DNA from: a virus
IMG/VR virus record: IMGVR_UViG_3300021425_001956
Span: 1-25,935 of that record
Length of the DNA stretch: 25,935 nt
Strand: one strand, 5' to 3'
A program made the position numbers and the translations under genes. The notes beneath the pieces were generated by a model. The model worked only from the letters and a program-made list of their open reading frames with translations, ran no database searches and had not been told where the DNA came from. Position 1 is the stretch's first letter. The number at the start of each line of letters is the position of its first letter. Below, piece after piece: positions 5,667 to 23,654 of the stretch.

Positions 5667-5695
5667 TTTACATTTGCACGAAAACATGTTATAAT
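5667..5695 (+). promoter_or_regulatory. Early-type promoter
   Basis: TTTACA (5667-5672), 17 bp, TATAAT (5690-5695), with TG at 5687-5688. It sits directly after the polymerase stop, and AAGGAG and the start of the MazG-like gene follow within 21 bases. Confidence 0.85.
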
Positions 5696-16579: not shown

Positions 16580-16608
16580 TTTACATTGTCTGAAAAGTAT
16601 GATATAAT
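16580..16608 (+). promoter_or_regulatory. Early-type promoter
   Basis: TTTACA (16580-16585), 17 bp, TATAAT (16603-16608), extended -10 TGA, with an A-tract upstream and ATATAAGAGAG after it. Nearly the whole 45-base block recurs at 24908-24936. Confidence 0.88.
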
Positions 16609-17408: not shown

Positions 17409-17839
17409 TGACGGAAGATCATTTGAAAACTACAGACGAAGGAACGTCTTTTACAATCAACCTTGATGACATACCACACCAGGATTTTAGTTGGTCAATT
17501 GATATTGGTCGACCTCAATACAAATTTAATGAAGGTCAACTCATTGAAGAGTTTAAGAACTATATCAACTCGACATATGACGGTCACTACTCAAAAGAAA
17601 ACTTTCAGGCGACAGAGTTTATTATCGATGGTGGACACGGTGAAGGCTTCTGTATCGGTAACGTATTGAAGTATGCACAGCGTTATGGTAAGAAGGGCAC
17701 AAGACAAGACGCAAGGAAAGACCTTATGAAGGTCCTTCACTATGCGCTTATCCAATTATATGTACACGATTTAACTTACAGTAAAGATGAGGAAGAAGAG
17801 AGAGCCAGCCATGATGCTGACGACAGTGACGGCGATTAA
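17408..17839 (+). CDS. DUF3310-like phage protein
   Basis: ATG 17408 overlaps the upstream stop (TAATG). The first 75 residues are not recognised. The central part (about 78-125) reads GEGFCIGNVLKYAQRYGKKGTRQDARKDLMKVLHYAL, close to the DUF3310 pattern (F-x-x-GNVLKY-x-x-R, K-x-G, D-L-x-K-x-x-x-Y). The C-terminus is strongly acidic (DEEEERASHDADDSDGD) and is encoded over a 69-base tail-to-tail overlap with the minus-strand gene. Function unknown. Confidence 0.72.
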   Translation: MTEDHLKTTDEGTSFTINLDDIPHQDFSWSIDIGRPQYKFNEGQLIEEFKNYINSTYDGHYSKENFQATEFIIDGGHGEGFCIGNVLKYAQRYGKKGTRQDARKDLMKVLHYALIQLYVHDLTYSKDEEEERASHDADDSDGD

Positions 17840-18250
17840 AGCTTGAGTCATCGTATCATTAAACTCTCTTTGCTTTTTAATTTTTTCACGCTTAATCTCT
17901 TCTAAGCGTTCGCGTTCCTCTCTCATTCTCTTAGCGCGAAGATCTACAATTGATTGCCAAGTTCCAGGCCCAAACCGCAGGTCAATGAGATTCCTCATCT
18001 CTTGCATTTTCTCTTGGGCCAGCTTGGCGTCAATTACTTCTTGAGCTACATTCTTAATACCAAATTGTTCTCCCATACTGACACCCGCTTTTCTCGCACG
18101 TGCCTTCTGTACCTGTTCTTCGCCTACGAACAAGTTCTCAATTTGGTCAGTTATATCGCGGATATCGTTGACTGTCTCGATATTGCTCTTGATAAAGTCA
18201 ACACTTTGCTTCACTAGTGCAATACCAGTGAGGACTTCTGCGACTACCAT
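17771..18250 (-). CDS. Minus-strand phage protein with C-terminal membrane anchor, 159 aa
   Basis: ATG is at 18250-18248 on the minus strand, with AGGA upstream. The protein has an amphipathic N-terminal half (LTGIALVKQSVDFIKSNI, ENLFVGEEQVQKARARKAG), then RFGPGTWQSIVDLRAKRM and a long charged helix (REERERLEEIKREKIKKQREF). A C-terminal hydrophobic helix follows (ALIAVTVVSIMAGSLFFLIF). Similar proteins with LRFGxGTW-like motifs occur in marine T4-like phages. A TATAAATA box at 18316-18323 faces it, suggesting late expression and perhaps a virion role. Function unknown. Confidence 0.72.
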   Translation of the reverse strand: MVVAEVLTGIALVKQSVDFIKSNIETVNDIRDITDQIENLFVGEEQVQKARARKAGVSMGEQFGIKNVAQEVIDAKLAQEKMQEMRNLIDLRFGPGTWQSIVDLRAKRMREERERLEEIKREKIKKQREFNDTMTQALIAVTVVSIMAGSLFFLIFTVS

Positions 18251-18315
18251 TTCGATCTATCCTGATTTCTGGTTAGATGTATGTCGCTTTAGATAATGAA
18301 CCTCACTTTCATTTA

Positions 18316-18323
18316 TATTTATA
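18316..18323 (-). promoter_or_regulatory. T4-type late promoter for the minus-strand gene
   Basis: The minus strand reads TATAAATA here, the T4 late promoter box recognised by gp55-loaded polymerase. It lies about 66 bases before the start of the 159-residue gene and directly abuts the -35 of the divergent early-type promoter at 18324. The octamer is AT-rich and some chance hits are expected in this window. Confidence 0.5.
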
Positions 18324-18352
18324 TTTACAAAGTCGACCATCTGTGATATAAT
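18324..18352 (+). promoter_or_regulatory. Early-type promoter of the tmRNA
   Basis: TTTACA (18324-18329), 17 bp, TATAAT (18347-18352), extended -10 TGA. Transcription would start near 18358-18361, just where the tmRNA acceptor piece begins. A plus-strand TATAAATA at 18352-18359 overlaps it and could add late expression. Confidence 0.85.
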
Positions 18353-18360
18353 ATAAATAG

Positions 18361-18416
18361 TTTTGAAGATGCTGAAGGTATACTGGACCCGGGGGCGGTA
18401 CCCGGCGCCTCCACCA
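18361..18416 (+). ncRNA. ssrA: tmRNA acceptor piece
   Basis: This half supplies the 3' strand of helix P2, the T-arm and the acceptor end. The T-stem is CCGGG (18389-18393) with CCCGG (18401-18405) around a seven-base loop GGCGGTA. CGCCTCC then ACCA closes it at 18416, so the CCA is encoded. The GGGGGCGGTACCCGG segment is what I recall as common in alphaproteobacterial tmRNA acceptor pieces. Confidence 0.9.
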
Positions 18417-18444
18417 AATCTCATGCCACAACGTGGTATTTTGT

Positions 18445-18575
18445 GGGGGCGAAATAGGATCGACAGGTATTGAGTCTTCAAAGTAGTAACTGCAAACGAT
18501 AACTTTGCACCTTTGGCTGCCGCAGCGTAGTCATTGGGCCCGCCGAGAGCCTCGAAACAGAATCTCGGCAACTTT
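18445..18575 (+). ncRNA. ssrA: tmRNA coding piece with degradation tag
   Basis: It begins GGGGGCGAAATAGGATCGACAG, close to the conserved tmRNA 5' end with its GGAT-CGAC D-loop sequence. The tag reads ANDNFAPLAAA then TAG. Only eight bases separate helix P2 from the resume codon, so the usual pseudoknot PK1 is missing. The linker between pieces (18417-18444) holds a 7-bp hairpin, ATGCCAC/GTGGTAT, likely removed during maturation. The 3' end is estimated. Confidence 0.88.
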
Positions 18576-18585
18576 AAGGATTATT

Positions 18586-19101
18586 ATGTTTCTATTTTGG
18601 TCTTACATTTCATATCTAATTTTAGCAACAATAGGTGCCACCTATGGTTTACATAGATATTGGGCTCATCGAAAAGGTGAGCGTAAGATTTGGTTCGAGT
18701 GGTTGTCTTTGGCATGTGCTCTACTAATCGGCGTCTATAAGCCAATCTCTTGGGTCGGTATTCACAGACTGCATCATAAGTATAGTGATACACCTCGAGA
18801 TCCTCATTCACCAATATATCAAGGATTTTGGAATGTATTTCTGTCAAGATGGAAAGGTCATATTCCCTATCATCTTGTAAAGGATTGTGTAAGAAATGAG
18901 CGTCTGAAGTTTTTTCAGAGATACGGTAAATATTTAATATGGCCAGTTATTCTTTTCTCACCACTTACAATTCTTTTTGGATATATTGGAATCGGTATAC
19001 TTAACACGGCAGGTCATTCGAATGGTCCATCAAATCATTGGTGGATAAATCTCTTTGCACCTTTCGAAGGAAATCACAAAGATCATCATGAAGGTTTATG
19101 A
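18586..19101 (+). CDS. Short fatty-acid desaturase-like membrane protein
   Basis: The 171-residue protein has the three histidine boxes of acyl desaturases: HRYWAH (box 1), HRLHH (GIHRLHHKYSDTPRDPHSP, box 2) and HKDHH (GNHKDHHEG, box 3), plus hydrophobic spans between them. These enzymes put a double bond in fatty acyl chains with a di-iron centre. It is much shorter than typical delta-9 desaturases (about 250-300) and ends right after box 3, so it may be minimal or degenerate. The frame extends upstream through the tmRNA, but ATG 18586 with AAGGA just before is the sensible start. Confidence 0.85.
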   Translation: MFLFWSYISYLILATIGATYGLHRYWAHRKGERKIWFEWLSLACALLIGVYKPISWVGIHRLHHKYSDTPRDPHSPIYQGFWNVFLSRWKGHIPYHLVKDCVRNERLKFFQRYGKYLIWPVILFSPLTILFGYIGIGILNTAGHSNGPSNHWWINLFAPFEGNHKDHHEGL

Positions 19102-20125
19102 TTTAAAAGACTGTCCTCAAATGATTACTGATCTCTTCTATGAAGAGATCGAAACAATTCAGAGGTCTGACCTTTTACTAAAACAAAATTATACGCTTGA
19201 AAGATTAAAGCTCGATGACATGTTGTCTTTCAATATACTTATTGATGATGACATCGATATCGTTTGCTTCGGTGGGCTGCAAAAGATAAGTGAAGAGGTT
19301 GCGAGAGTTTCATCGCGACATTATGTTTCTCAAAAATATGTAAAGACTTGGAAGCAAGATCGATTTAGACCAAACTGGCAGTATCTAGTGCCAAAACAAA
19401 TTCAACATGCATATGACTTAGGATACAAAGGTTTATTTTGGTCTGCTCACATCTATAAGAAAAAGTCTCTATTCGATCTTACGTGTAAGAATGCAGAAGA
19501 GTTTACTGACATAAAATTTACACCTTTACCCGGTTTGTACAATATATATGGCGTAGGACAGAGAGTTTGTCAGATCGGTGACTATGATTGCGGATTTGCA
19601 AATGAAAACGTTTTTCTTACTGATATTGAATTTGACAAATATAAAGATGAAATGTATGACATACTGAAAAACTATCCTAAAGCAAACGAAGGATGGGATG
19701 ATTCGAATCCATGGAAAGGTGAATGGATAGATGCTGATAGTGAAATCATTCACACTGTAAATCTCAATGAAGTATTACCCGAACATCCATTGATTCATCA
19801 TTTGTATGACTATTTTGAGGATATACATAAAGTCATGGTATGTAATGTGCTCAAAGGTCCGATACCAGAACATCACGATCAAAGTGAACATGCATTAAAA
19901 GACAACATGCATATTAAAATTAAACTTGACGGAGACTGGTCGAAGTTTTATGTAAGAGATCTGAAATACAATTGGAAAAAATATTTTCCTAACGATAAGA
20001 ATGTGGCTATATTTGATAATCAGAAAAATATACATGCTGTAGAATCCGGACAAATGTTGCTTATTGTTCCTTACGGTAAATTGAAAAGAGAAATATATGA
20101 ACGAGTTGATACAGAAAGTCGCTGA
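19088..20125 (+). CDS. Fusion: acyltransferase-like N-terminus and 2OG-Fe(II) oxygenase-like C-terminus
   Basis: The 345-residue protein has two parts. Residues 50-165 look GNAT-like: DDDIDIVCFGGLQ, then EEVARVSSRHYVSQKY with a helix and LGYKGLFWSAHIYKKKSLFDL. Residues 175-335 look like an aspartyl/asparaginyl hydroxylase-type cupin, with H262-x-D264 (EHHDQSEH), a second His at 316 (KNIHAVESGQ) and IKIKLDGDWSKFYV between. A Fe(II)/2OG oxygenase activity is plausible. Substrate unknown. ATG 19088 lies within the desaturase end (14-base overlap); the 3' end overlaps the next gene by 29 bases. Confidence 0.55.
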   Translation: MKVYDLKDCPQMITDLFYEEIETIQRSDLLLKQNYTLERLKLDDMLSFNILIDDDIDIVCFGGLQKISEEVARVSSRHYVSQKYVKTWKQDRFRPNWQYLVPKQIQHAYDLGYKGLFWSAHIYKKKSLFDLTCKNAEEFTDIKFTPLPGLYNIYGVGQRVCQIGDYDCGFANENVFLTDIEFDKYKDEMYDILKNYPKANEGWDDSNPWKGEWIDADSEIIHTVNLNEVLPEHPLIHHLYDYFEDIHKVMVCNVLKGPIPEHHDQSEHALKDNMHIKIKLDGDWSKFYVRDLKYNWKKYFPNDKNVAIFDNQKNIHAVESGQMLLIVPYGKLKREIYERVDTESR

Positions 20126-20921
20126 AGAAGGAATTGTAGTACTTAAAAATCAGCATATGTCTGACGAAGAGTTCTACCAGAAAAATCTAACGTGGGGTAA
20201 ACATCAAGCGTCTGGCATCCACGCATGTCATGAAGATTATCCTATCATATTTCGTGTCACAAATAAAAAGTTGCCTAACGGCAAACAAGGTCTGTTTAGT
20301 CGTGGCTTCTTAGATTGGCACTGTAATAATATGTTCTGCGTTGATCCAGAAGAAGTTGTATGTTTATGGGGTAAGAAGGTCATCAAAGATGCTCCTACTA
20401 TTTGGGCACATTGTACAAATATGTACCGAGACCTACCAGAAACTCTGAAAAAAGAATTGGATGATGTTTGGGTTACAATGTCCAATATCCATAACATCAA
20501 GGATGGTGGGCGGATCTATACCGGTGCAGGTGATCTCGATATGGAAGATGTAATCAAACTTGATAAGTGGAACTTCCGTACACGTGAGGGATTAGAAGCT
20601 GGGTTATTTGATCCGAACTTTAGTGCCAAACAACTGAAGTCGGGTCGGTATCTAATAAAGGTGAAAAAGAAGCTTGTGAGGATTCACCCAGTGACCGGAG
20701 AGAAAGTTCTATACTTCCCGTTTGGTCATATGTCAGATTTTCCACGTAAGGATGAGTTAATCGAGCGACTGATGCAACCACAATATATCTACACCCATGA
20801 ATGGGAAGAGGGTGACATCGTGTTTTCGGATCAGCTTATGACAATTCATAAACGTGATGCGACACTTGATACTGAAGAGAAAAGAGAATTGTACAGAACA
20901 ACATTCTACTACGATGTATAA
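20097..20921 (+). CDS. TauD/TfdA-like 2OG oxygenase homologue with altered metal motif
   Basis: The 274-residue protein follows the TauD layout: LDWHCNNMF (first metal motif, residues 73-80), IHPVTGEKVLYFPFGHMSDF (196-215), WEEGDIVFSDQLMTIHKRD (236-254, distal His 251) and RTTFY (R267, expected to bind 2-oxoglutarate). The first motif reads H75-x-N77 where the family has H-x-D, so the carboxylate ligand is replaced by Asn. Activity may be lost or changed. ATG 20097 overlaps the previous gene. The end overlaps the FkbM gene. Confidence 0.75.
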   Translation: MNELIQKVAEEGIVVLKNQHMSDEEFYQKNLTWGKHQASGIHACHEDYPIIFRVTNKKLPNGKQGLFSRGFLDWHCNNMFCVDPEEVVCLWGKKVIKDAPTIWAHCTNMYRDLPETLKKELDDVWVTMSNIHNIKDGGRIYTGAGDLDMEDVIKLDKWNFRTREGLEAGLFDPNFSAKQLKSGRYLIKVKKKLVRIHPVTGEKVLYFPFGHMSDFPRKDELIERLMQPQYIYTHEWEEGDIVFSDQLMTIHKRDATLDTEEKRELYRTTFYYDV

Positions 20922-21510
20922 TTTATTTAGATCAAAAAGTAAAAAACAAAGAGCTGCACACTTAAGATATTTTTTGGTGCACATGCTTTACAAATATCAA
21001 TTTCAGTTTGATACTTATGTTGATGTTGGTGCATGTAATAGTGTAGAGCTGAATCAATACTGCGATCTCTTTGACAATGTTGTAGGATTTGAACCGAATC
21101 CTTATGCGTCAATTAAATCTCGAGATAATCTAACTCTTTATAAAAATGCATTGTCTAATAGAGAGGAAGTCAGACTGTTTCATATCGATAAAACTACTCC
21201 ACATTTTTCGACAATGAATTGGGAAAAAATGAGAGAATATGTGCCGCGTGGTCATGAGTGGGAAGATATTGAAATTACTACAAAGAAACTCGATGACTTT
21301 GATCTTACACCAAATTGCATTAAGATTGATACTGAAGGTGAAGATGATGCTGTAGTTCAAGGAGCTCTTGAAACAATTCAAAGTTACAAGCCGATATTGT
21401 ACCTCGAGTTTATGAGTGACGAGACAAAACAGATTCTTATAGATATAGGATATAGCGTTGAATATTCAGAATGGATAGACAACTTCTTAATTCACAAGGA
21501 TTACCTATGA
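20914..21510 (+). CDS. FkbM-family methyltransferase
   Basis: The 198-residue SAM-dependent methyltransferase has YVDVGACNS (motif I, 35-43), VVGFEPNPYA with E60, a middle NALSNREEVRLFHI and CIKIDTEGEDDAVVQGA, the usual FkbM motif K-I-D-x-E-G. FkbM enzymes O-methylate sugars and natural products. A basic N-terminal helix (LFRSKSKKQRAAHLRYFL) precedes the domain. ATG 20914 overlaps the TauD-like stop; the end overlaps the next start (ATGA). It could methylate a sugar or hydroxyl made by its neighbours; that is inference. Confidence 0.88.
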   Translation: MYNLFRSKSKKQRAAHLRYFLVHMLYKYQFQFDTYVDVGACNSVELNQYCDLFDNVVGFEPNPYASIKSRDNLTLYKNALSNREEVRLFHIDKTTPHFSTMNWEKMREYVPRGHEWEDIEITTKKLDDFDLTPNCIKIDTEGEDDAVVQGALETIQSYKPILYLEFMSDETKQILIDIGYSVEYSEWIDNFLIHKDYL

Positions 21511-22130
21511 TTGATATGGTCAAAATTATCGACGACATCCCGTCATTTCAAGATGCGTGTCAGGAGTGTATGAAATACGGTGATGTTGATCTAGAATTAG
21601 ATTTGAAAAAGGTAACACACGAAGAGGTCGCTACTGTGCCATTACAGACTTGGCATCAGGATGGATCTCATGTAAGATATTTTCCAAAGTACAGCGCACT
21701 ATGGTGTGAAACGGCAAAGGAAGATGCACCAATTACACAGATCATATCAACAAGATTACCGGCAGTTATTGCAGAAAAATACATTGATGAAGAAGTTGTA
21801 ATGGATTTTAAAAAGACAATTGATGAAGGTTCATTCTTTAAATTTAAGAAAGAATCTCATGCTCGTCTTTATGCTATGAAAGCAAATAAAACGCCTATGC
21901 CTTTGATCGAAAAAGATGAGAGAGGTTACTACACAAGATGGTGTCCATTCATCAAAGATCCGGATAACAAATATGAACATCTTGGAATGATTATTCTTGC
22001 TCGAGATATTACAAACATTCAGTGGAAACCGAATCGACTTGTCATCATGGAGAATAAAGCAACATTACACAGACGTAAGCCTGGAACATATGATGGAGAC
22101 AGAGTACTGTGGAGAGCTTATATAAGGTAA
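21507..22130 (+). CDS. TauD/TfdA-like 2OG-Fe(II) oxygenase
   Basis: The 207-residue protein has an intact metal triad: H50-Q-D52 (TWHQDGSHVRYFPKY) and H188 (RLVIMENKATLHRRKPG), with R199 or R203 (DRVLWRAYIR) for 2-oxoglutarate. ITQIISTRLP and WKPNRLVIMEN match the core strands of TauD-like enzymes. Such enzymes hydroxylate small molecules or side chains; substrate unknown. It is shorter than TauD (283). ATG 21507 overlaps the FkbM stop (ATGA) and the stop overlaps the next ATG. Confidence 0.8.
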   Translation: MIDMVKIIDDIPSFQDACQECMKYGDVDLELDLKKVTHEEVATVPLQTWHQDGSHVRYFPKYSALWCETAKEDAPITQIISTRLPAVIAEKYIDEEVVMDFKKTIDEGSFFKFKKESHARLYAMKANKTPMPLIEKDERGYYTRWCPFIKDPDNKYEHLGMIILARDITNIQWKPNRLVIMENKATLHRRKPGTYDGDRVLWRAYIR

Positions 22131-22690
22131 TGGTCATGGGGGCAAGTAACGCCGACAATGACAATAAAACCTGGGTTGATTATCTTTCTTGCGATGGCTA
22201 TGTAGTACACAATGCAGCAGTGCGTGGCACGTCATGCGACGTACTCATCGATCAGTGGGAAAGTAACAAATGGTTCGAGCCGAATCTTGTTTTGCTAGAC
22301 ACTCCACCCCTGTTTCGCTTTCATCTTTTTGATATTGCAATAGGCGGTATCGGTCGAGATGTTCTCTATACAGACTGGTTAAAAGAATCCAAACTATATG
22401 CATGGTATAAAAAACAGTGGCCGTATAGAACTCGTGAGTCGTTTGACGTCGTTGTAAATTCACTTAATGATGCTTTAAATGACACACATAACAAAAGAGG
22501 TATGGAAACATTACATCGCAGACAGAGACAGCATGTCGATCATTTGAAACTTTTAGCGCATGTAATTGAATTGCCACAACCAAATGGTGATCTTGACGAA
22601 TTACACTATACGGAAGAAAGACATCAAGAAATAGCAGATATAGCAGAGACCATTATCAATGAACAAATACTTCACTCATCTCGCTCTTGA
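22130..22690 (+). CDS. SGNH/GDSL-like hydrolase
   Basis: The 186-residue protein starts with an SGNH block I, MVMGASNADN (Ser6), and ends its core with a block V, DELHYTEERHQE (D156, H159), the catalytic Asp-His pair. A strand, FEPNLVLLDTPP, lies between. Such enzymes are esterases or acetyl hydrolases, often acting on sugar O-acetyl groups. ATG 22130 overlaps the previous stop (TAATG); GTG 22109 would add seven residues and is an alternative start. The 3' end overlaps the next gene by 32 bases. Confidence 0.7.
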   Translation: MVMGASNADNDNKTWVDYLSCDGYVVHNAAVRGTSCDVLIDQWESNKWFEPNLVLLDTPPLFRFHLFDIAIGGIGRDVLYTDWLKESKLYAWYKKQWPYRTRESFDVVVNSLNDALNDTHNKRGMETLHRRQRQHVDHLKLLAHVIELPQPNGDLDELHYTEERHQEIADIAETIINEQILHSSRS

Positions 22691-23654
22691 TTACGATTCA
22701 GAATCTCTGATAGAAGAATCAAAGACTGCGACGTATAAGCCATTTGAAAGTGGCTATGATAATGGAACGTTCTTTGCACATGCACCAACATGGTTACAAG
22801 GTCGTGTTACTCAATTTGATGATTTTCCTGAAATTAAAAGACTTACTGATTTCATTGCTCATAAAATTAACTCGAAAGATGTACGACCTCGTTTCTATAA
22901 ACAAGAAGCGAACACTGCTGTTCCCATGCATAGAGACCAAAATACAAAATGTTGCGTTAACATCGTATTGTCAGAAGATGCCGCACCAATAGTTTGGGAA
23001 GACATAGGACCAATATCGTATGACTGTGCTCTTTTAAATATCACAGAAAGCCATGAAGTACCAGCTCATCCTCATGAAAGACTTCTTTTAAAGTTTTCGA
23101 TATTTGACGTGACATATGAAGAAGCAGTTAAAAGATGGACAACGCCTATTATAAAAATTGGAGAGGTAGATCTAGACCTATTGCTTTTAGAATCTGATAC
23201 AGTGGAATATGACGGGCAAATATGCCTTCAAGGGGTTAAAGGCAATCTTGATCCTTATTTAGGAATAGGTCAAGCTGGTGGATATAATAGTTGGGAAAGA
23301 CAACAAAAACATAGTTATAAATCTGAGGAATTCAACATACCTATATTCGACTTGAAAAATATAAATGAAGCACTTACAAAGTTTGGTATGGTTCACACGC
23401 GCCTAATGACTGTAAAACCGAAGTCGTGTTATTCTTACCATGTTGACTCTAGAAAAAGACTACATATTCCACTCGAAACAAATGAACACTGTTGGTTTAT
23501 TATTGATAAAGAGATGCATCATTTGCCAGCTGATGGCTCCGTTTATTTGGTTGACACAATGCTACCGCATACGTTTATAAATTGTGGTTCAGAACCTAGA
23601 ACACATATAGTGTCTCAGTCGATAATCAATCCAAATTTATTTAATCTATCATAA
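22659..23654 (+). CDS. Tandem-domain 2OG-Fe(II) oxygenase-like protein
   Basis: The 331-residue protein contains two cupin-type oxygenase-like units. Unit 1 has H91-R-D93 (VPMHRDQNTKCCVNI), H132 (ESHEV) and R141 (ERLLLKF). Unit 2 has H261-V-D263 (YSYHVDSRKRLHIPL), H304 (LPHTFINCG) and R314. Unit 2 resembles Asp/Asn beta-hydroxylase domains, and unit 1 matches the minus-strand protein at 23615-24106. The whole would be a duplicated or fused oxygenase. ATG 22659 is in the SGNH gene end. It runs tail to tail into the minus-strand gene with a 40-base overlap. Confidence 0.68.
   Translation: MNKYFTHLALDYDSESLIEESKTATYKPFESGYDNGTFFAHAPTWLQGRVTQFDDFPEIKRLTDFIAHKINSKDVRPRFYKQEANTAVPMHRDQNTKCCVNIVLSEDAAPIVWEDIGPISYDCALLNITESHEVPAHPHERLLLKFSIFDVTYEEAVKRWTTPIIKIGEVDLDLLLLESDTVEYDGQICLQGVKGNLDPYLGIGQAGGYNSWERQQKHSYKSEEFNIPIFDLKNINEALTKFGMVHTRLMTVKPKSCYSYHVDSRKRLHIPLETNEHCWFIIDKEMHHLPADGSVYLVDTMLPHTFINCGSEPRTHIVSQSIINPNLFNLS

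Follow-up and report, generated by a model that had tools for sequence, protein, structure and literature searches.

A reduced, mosaic two-piece tmRNA with phage promoters in a T4-like phage contig

The window, which is the whole stretch of DNA analysed here (25,935 bp, a complete IMG/VR record and a genome fragment), probably encodes a functional two-piece phage tmRNA of alphaproteobacterial type that the phage has reduced and rebuilt. Its anatomy, covariation, promoters, lack of the pseudoknot PK1 and mosaic origin are all read from the sequence. The most likely role is ribosome rescue with host SmpB, in which the peptide ANDNFAPLAAAA would be added. While the type itself is widespread in viruses, this pared-down version assembled from two viral lineages seems to be new; the absence of PK1, the phage promoters on the tmRNA and the recombinant origin go beyond the published cases found.

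Results and Discussion

Identity of the phage

The window contig encodes a gp43 polymerase (phrog_262, E 7e-293), UvsX and a gp41-type helicase, and comes from a marine T4-like virus. The closest annotated polymerase, with 52.7% identity, is that of the Kyanoviridae phage C48C1, whose genome was searched for a permuted tmRNA and yielded none. In the record of viral locus L023 (G005, 52505-55082) gp43 lies in two pieces with an in-frame TAG, for which an intron, a split gene or a sequencing error are possible.

A sequence-only reading of the window had taken the tmRNA to point to the host. The host is likely to be an alphaproteobacterium, but the tmRNA is not proof of this because an alpha-type tmRNA is also found in phage Melnitz, which infects a gammaproteobacterium (PMC9004378).

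Identification and anatomy of the tmRNA gene

Rfam models were searched with cmscan at gathering thresholds, which are 50 bits for RF01849 and 47 bits for RF04321. The alpha_tmRNA model (RF01849), proposed earlier as a check, matched 18320-18573 (+) with 106.2 bits (E 2.3e-28). The tmRNA_permuted model (RF04321) matched 18365-18530 (+) with 85.3 bits (E 2.6e-15). ARAGORN did not detect a tmRNA gene in the window, and BLAST of the window tmRNA against isolate phages returned fragment matches only. The Rfam matches and the covariation described below, in a T4-like contig, bear out the proposal of a phage-encoded, permuted two-piece tmRNA. The order is that of the alpha type, with the CCA/acceptor half followed by the spacer and then the coding half:

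18365-18416, + strand: acceptor-side piece, 52 nt, with encoded CCA at 18414-18416 (RF01849/RF04321 alignment and alignment of relatives)
18389-18405, + strand: T arm, 5 bp, loop GGCGGUA (two-sided changes in 3/5 pairs; 100% paired in 14 sequences)
18406-18412, + strand: acceptor helix 3' strand CGCCUCC, of which U pairs with G3 (Rfam alignment, structure test)
18417-18444, + strand: spacer (IVS), 28 nt, predicted to be removed on maturation, with a 5-bp hairpin GCCAC-AAC-GUGGU at 18425-18437 (read from the sequence)
18445-18575, + strand: coding piece, ~131 nt; the 5' end is a predicted RNase P site and the 3' end is approximate
18445-18451, + strand: acceptor helix 5' strand GGGGGCG (Rfam alignment, structure test)
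18464-18479, + strand: P2 3' strands, with partners 18383-18385, 18377-18380 and 18365-18369 (structure test)
18492-18530, + strand: tag reading frame GCA...UAG, encoding ANDNFAPLAAAA; resume codon GCA at 18492-18494, stop UAG at 18528-18530
18536-18569, + strand: 3' H-type pseudoknot, 18536-18539/18549-18552 plus 18542-18548/18563-18569 (two-sided changes in 1/4 and 6/7 pairs; 100% paired)

The 7-bp acceptor helix with G3-U70 was recovered as first read (GGGGGCG/CGCCUCC). P2, which had been described as a single 9-bp helix, consists instead of three short segments of 5+4+3 pairs, and the gene start moves from 18361 to 18365. The processed ends suggested earlier near 18416 and 18445 are consistent with the alignment. 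The predicted mature size is ~182 nt, at which the tmRNA would be smaller than every bacterial version examined here.

The in-frame tag starting with alanine was also confirmed, with GCA as resume codon. As in the alpha type, a resume codon is followed by a short tag with a hydrophobic/Ala-Ala degron end. All of the readable phage tags (74/74) end in AA and nearly all start with ANDN, like host tags. The final Ala-Ala is encoded by 14 different codon pairs across phage tags, and selection therefore acts on the peptide too. The host-like ends favour the host's normal degradation route, so the suggestion that a phage-chosen tag retargets host proteolysis was rejected. Two unusually long tags were also observed in viral loci, the basic 31-aa tag ANDNVAQPKFMKKRNTFARKVGFTKGMALAA on a PK1-less backbone (L022, L061, L072, L104) and the 29-aa tag ANDNALSNVTFVDFSAPVTAVNEDFALAA (L015, L024, L029, L054).

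Covariation among phage relatives

Fourteen distinct PK1-less phage relatives were aligned and one named structure of 35 pairs was scored. Paired cells made up 97.5% of the total, a percentage that is biased because the structure was read from the window; two-sided changes are free of that bias. Such changes were found in 12 pairs versus 6.1 in shuffles. Covariation was 0.272 versus 0.084 in shuffles, 0/500 of which reached the observed value, and sliding the partner strands abolished the signal. The compensatory changes in relatives that the sequence-only reading had proposed to look for are thus present as two-sided changes in the acceptor, T, P2 and 3' pseudoknot helices. In the acceptor helix, which joins both pieces, C-G is replaced by G-C in 4/14 sequences. 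The two-piece binding energy (-7.4 versus -5.1 for shuffled acceptor pieces, sd 3.0) was not significant and was therefore excluded as evidence; the comparative data carry the claim.

Absence of PK1

The predicted tmRNA lacks PK1, which to our knowledge is near-universal among tmRNAs and which is a usual, though non-defining, trait of the alpha type. In its place is a short linker:

18480-18491, + strand: 12-nt linker with a conserved UA at -5/-4 before the resume codon (spacing comparison)

P2 extends to 18479 and the resume codon begins at 18492, so there is no space for a pseudoknot. Between the conserved GATCGAC of the tRNA-like domain (TLD) and the resume codon the window has a spacing of 27 nt, versus 60-67 nt in 120 host tmRNAs, which were collected with a long-gap pattern, so that a short-gap pattern is the fair test. 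The short-spacer pattern was found in 31 viral contigs and in 0/84,980 prokaryote species genomes, where the long-gap version, used as a positive control, gave at least 120 matches. A looser pattern gave 0 short and 77 long matches in 385 alphaproteobacterial genomes. Nine isolate phages with two-piece tmRNAs, which in most of these genomes lack an annotation, also retain a longer linker. Among the matches listed, tight spacing of 23-29 nt was found in ~36 of 323 viral sequences; these are separate from viral spacings of 35-44 nt, which may hold hairpins. Inheritance of the PK1-less form from small-genome hosts was considered and rejected, as the readable small-genome alphaproteobacterial tmRNAs in the sample retain the long PK1-bearing linker.

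The requirement for PK1 is debated on the basis of engineered E. coli mutants. A mutant in which single-stranded RNA takes the place of PK1 still tags efficiently in vivo, so the loss of PK1 need not inactivate a tmRNA (PMC4236655). It could nevertheless lower function in the native setting. The tmRNA of Oenococcus lacks one PK1 helix, and the shortest tag-bearing tmRNA in a 2005 survey was 250 nt (PMC1168896).

A reduced tmRNA might instead act as a decoy, tying up SmpB or ribosomes so that host trans-translation is inhibited. This has been proposed for mycobacteriophage DS6A, whose TLD-only tmRNA is the precedent for inhibition by a phage (PMC4131195; PMC11915505). The reduced structure and the missing PK1 suit a decoy. 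Unlike DS6A, however, the window tmRNA has a complete tag frame, a resume signal and a stop codon, and an Ala-Ala end kept through synonymous codons across phages would be superfluous for a decoy. We consider this reading unlikely.

Phage promoters upstream of the tmRNA

Two putative promoters precede the gene:

18324-18352, + strand: early sigma70-type promoter TTTACA-N17-TATAAT with an extended -10 (TGA before TATAAT; 11/12 consensus matches with TG)
18352-18359, + strand: T4-type late box TATAAATA, which overlaps the early -10; late start predicted at 18365

TTTACA-N16-18-TATAAT occurs in 6 exact copies in the window versus 0.04 expected. The six promoters of this type (TTTACA-N17-TATAAT) are at window positions 5667, 9891, 16580, 18324, 24124 and 24908, and those at 16580 and 24908 are identical in all 29 bases. 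A similar -35/-10 lies upstream of 17/22 short-spacer phage tmRNAs, 4/53 long-spacer phage tmRNAs and 0/121 host tmRNAs. With the usual T4 late-promoter geometry, late transcripts would begin at 18365, exactly where the acceptor piece starts. The late box was found at a narrow upstream distance in 61/79 distinct phage tmRNAs versus 1/121 host tmRNAs, and it lies exactly 5 nt before GAAGATG in 11/13 readable short-spacer loci.

These promoters bear on the possibility that the gene is a host relic left by imprecise excision of an ssrA-integrated prophage and functionless in the phage. tmRNA genes are common integration sites, and such an origin was suggested for Melnitz (PMC9004378). It could account for the ultimate origin of the gene, but not for its present state: late promoters stand at fixed spacing in 61 of the 79 distinct phage tmRNAs, evolution has been compensatory, the left neighbour is conserved, and the PK1-less class is phage-specific, not having been found in the host genomes searched. 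A functionless relic is therefore hardly credible.

Mosaic origin and neighbouring genes

Judged by its alignments, the window tmRNA is a recombinant with halves from two phage lineages. The joint and the flanking genes are as follows:

17771-18250, - strand: divergent upstream gene, 159 aa, the conserved left neighbour (found before the tmRNA in 14 loci, which all belong to the short-spacer class)
18485-18491, + strand: inferred recombination joint at the tag start (alignments with viral loci L009 and L127)
18586-19101, + strand: fatty acid desaturase family gene, downstream in the same direction (PF00487, E 4.4e-10; a homologue follows the tmRNA of L009)

On the left, window 17714-18580 aligns with L127 (74.5% over 875 columns). 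On the right, window 18485 to 19599, through the desaturase, aligns with L009 (75.4% over 1126 columns), whose own left half carries a long linker. The tag, 3' pseudoknot and downstream desaturase gene resemble one lineage and the left half another. The contigs are metagenomic, but the sequence shared at the joint is rather short to have caused a misassembly; the window-type junction was also found in an independent contig (L055). A further mosaic, L010, follows L069 and L097 almost exactly as far as GCAAACGATAAC and L112 almost exactly from there on.

Phage tmRNAs are commonly mosaic, whereas none of 114 host tmRNAs is. The 5' half was defined as the sequence up to the resume codon and the 3' half as the tag onward. 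Identities of the two halves correlate at 0.29 in 85 phage tmRNAs and at 0.68 in the 114 host tmRNAs. Pairs with like 5' and unlike 3' halves numbered 43/110 in phages versus 0/254 in hosts, and pairs with like 3' and unlike 5' halves 14/83 versus 0/159. In 272 phage sequences without spacers the corresponding numbers were 86/383 and 138/441.

The ten closest viral relatives of the 159-aa upstream gene all adjoin a tmRNA. Behind this conserved neighbour the downstream genes vary, and include a desaturase, an AprB-like gene, a Rieske oxygenase and an AMP-ligase-like gene. The idea that a downstream family always moves with the tag proved only partly true, since most pairs with like 3' and unlike 5' halves have unrelated downstream DNA. 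In the T4-like phage locus L017 a sulfur-oxidation gene directly follows the tmRNA (274-750, -); it encodes AprB, the APS reductase beta subunit (PF12139, E 1.7e-25). In the window an accessory-gene run extends beyond the desaturase (20097-20921 and neighbours at 19055-23654), with a TauD-type dioxygenase (PF02668) and several other proteins.

T4 mobile regulatory cassettes and PeSLs are short regulatory sequences where T4-like phages swap neighbouring genes, whereas the window joint is a structured, tag-coding RNA gene. Both are cited in PMC4503421. By analogy with the cassettes, the tmRNA might now be chiefly a recombination handle and leader for downstream gene swaps, with tagging secondary. 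Mosaic joints located either at the tag or at the 3' end are in keeping with this, as are the different downstream genes behind a constant left neighbour. L009 and L016 share the 5' half and have near-identical 3' halves, yet their next genes are unrelated. However, a handle can also be a working tmRNA, conserved sequence by itself may be enough to bring about recombination, and the conserved degradation tag and covarying tRNA-like helices show that tmRNA function itself is under selection. A gene that is mainly a handle is, in our judgement, very unlikely.

Spacer ORFs in relatives

Long-spacer kin of the window tmRNA encode microproteins under purifying selection in the discarded spacer, while the 28-nt window spacer is without one. 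The window spacer ORF MPQRGILWGRNRIDRY (16 codons) was dismissed as a chance ORF, too short to claim. The closest kin with the same tag type (L304, L307, L308 and L311) have spacers of 109-112 nt with ORFs. An ATG ORF covering at least 75% of the spacer was found in 78/245 spacers of at least 55 nt, versus 21.6 expected from shuffles. For the coding frame of the CINNYS family (19 sequences) dN/dS is 0.23, compared to 1.72 and 1.63 for its two alternative frames; the coding frames of smaller families have values of 0.21-0.45. One spacer ORF matches Pfam DUF6356 above the cut-off and another PHROG 16066. Many end in ...MMGAK, the last codons and stop being GGGGCGAAAUAG of the tRNA-like domain. 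Host spacers were at most 52 nt (145 cases, most of them selected with a 38-nt limit). Loci with spacer ORFs include L304, L305, L307, L311, L338, L482-L664 and Melnitz (L258, about 1282-1424).

Distribution and comparison with known systems

A two-piece tmRNA had been thought unusual in a T4-like lytic genome. It is in fact common, being found in hundreds of viral contigs and published for Melnitz and Mosig (PMC9004378). Pattern scans over four spacer-length ranges matched at least 118, at least 120, at least 120 and at least 66 viral contigs, and 323 distinct viral tmRNA sequences among the matches listed were analysed. Homologues of gp23 or gp43 were found in 12/41 tested tmRNA records, the remainder being mostly short fragments, and phage origin is secure for many of these records. 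Buchholz et al. (2022) reported that Melnitz has a two-piece ssrA and put the number of two-piece tmRNAs in isolate phages at 53 (PMC9004378), and a 2025 database of 97,179 tmRNA sequences holds 79 unique phage tmRNAs (PMC11915505). Given the published cases of Melnitz and Mosig and the ~320 distinct viral sequences found here, the existence of a two-piece tmRNA is not new in itself. Unannotated two-piece tmRNAs were also seen in the published phages Mesorhizobium Cp1R7A-A1, RcXuper, RpoS-V10, EliS-L02, MD18, RcSimone-Hastad and RcRudolph (L263-L265, L267-L270); in RcRudolph a hypothetical protein is annotated across the tmRNA.

Methylophilales phage Melnitz and Pelagibacter phage Mosig are likewise marine and T4-like with an alpha-type permuted gene (PMC9004378), and Melnitz has the TATAAATA box at the same place as the window. 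Both have a longer stretch between TLD and resume codon that forms a hairpin or pseudoknot, which the window lacks, and the Melnitz spacer is ~140 nt with an ORF, compared to 28 nt in the window. The paper on these phages also reports a glutamine riboswitch (PMC9004378); in this the window differs, as Rfam cmscan gave no riboswitch match in it.

The alphaproteobacterial two-piece tmRNA (Caulobacter type; RF01849, RF04321) has the same gene order, with the CCA-acceptor piece first, and shares with the window the G3-U70 helix, T arm, P2, an ANDN...AA tag and a 3' pseudoknot with AACAGAA. The window tmRNA differs in its lack of PK1, predicted mature size, phage promoters and mosaic structure. It also has A-U or U-A, where the Caulobacter type has mostly C-G, next to the tRNA-like domain; this P2 pair is A-U or U-A in 76/78 phage tmRNAs and mostly C-G in hosts. 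Mycobacteriophages Bxz1, Wildcat and DS6A and Bacillus phage G show that lytic or large phages also carry other tmRNAs (PMC4131195). Bxz1, Wildcat and phage G have one-piece standard forms and the TLD-only form of DS6A is tag-less; none is permuted and two-piece.

Proposed function

Lytic T4-like infection breaks host nucleic acids, and stalled ribosomes are expected. From the features above we infer processing, charging, tagging and a benefit to the phage. The tmRNA would be transcribed early from the host-type promoter and late from the T4-type promoter, the late transcript having the acceptor piece at its very 5' end. The 28-nt spacer would then be cut out by host RNase P and 3' processing, leaving two RNAs of ~52 and ~131 nt that stay together through the acceptor helix and P2. 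G3-U70 would allow charging by host alanyl-tRNA synthetase, and host SmpB would deliver the tmRNA to ribosomes that have stalled on broken mRNA. Such a ribosome would resume at GCA, append ANDNFAPLAAAA and be released, and the tagged fragment would pass to host proteases. No phage-encoded smpB was found in 11 phage records, so host SmpB would be needed; smpB is present in both host genomes searched. During its evolution this tmRNA has lost PK1, with the 12-nt linker remaining, and has acquired the tag and everything downstream from another phage lineage.

More broadly, we lean slightly towards the view that the phage two-piece tmRNA is a modular platform. Its promoter and tRNA-like half would be bound to the lineage, its tag half and an accessory gene would be swapped at the resume codon, and its spacer would be a cargo slot that encodes a microprotein in many phages. 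The microprotein would be translated from the precursor ahead of processing, and the window would be a PK1-less member with an empty slot. As relatives have protein-coding ORFs in the discarded spacer, a single precursor could serve as an mRNA and also give rise to a two-piece tmRNA. The removal of PK1 in phages provides natural test molecules of ~180 nt. Recombination at the resume codon means that phages exchange the degradation tag, sometimes with the next gene, and this exchange offers a new view of how accessory genes are remodelled in lytic marine phages.
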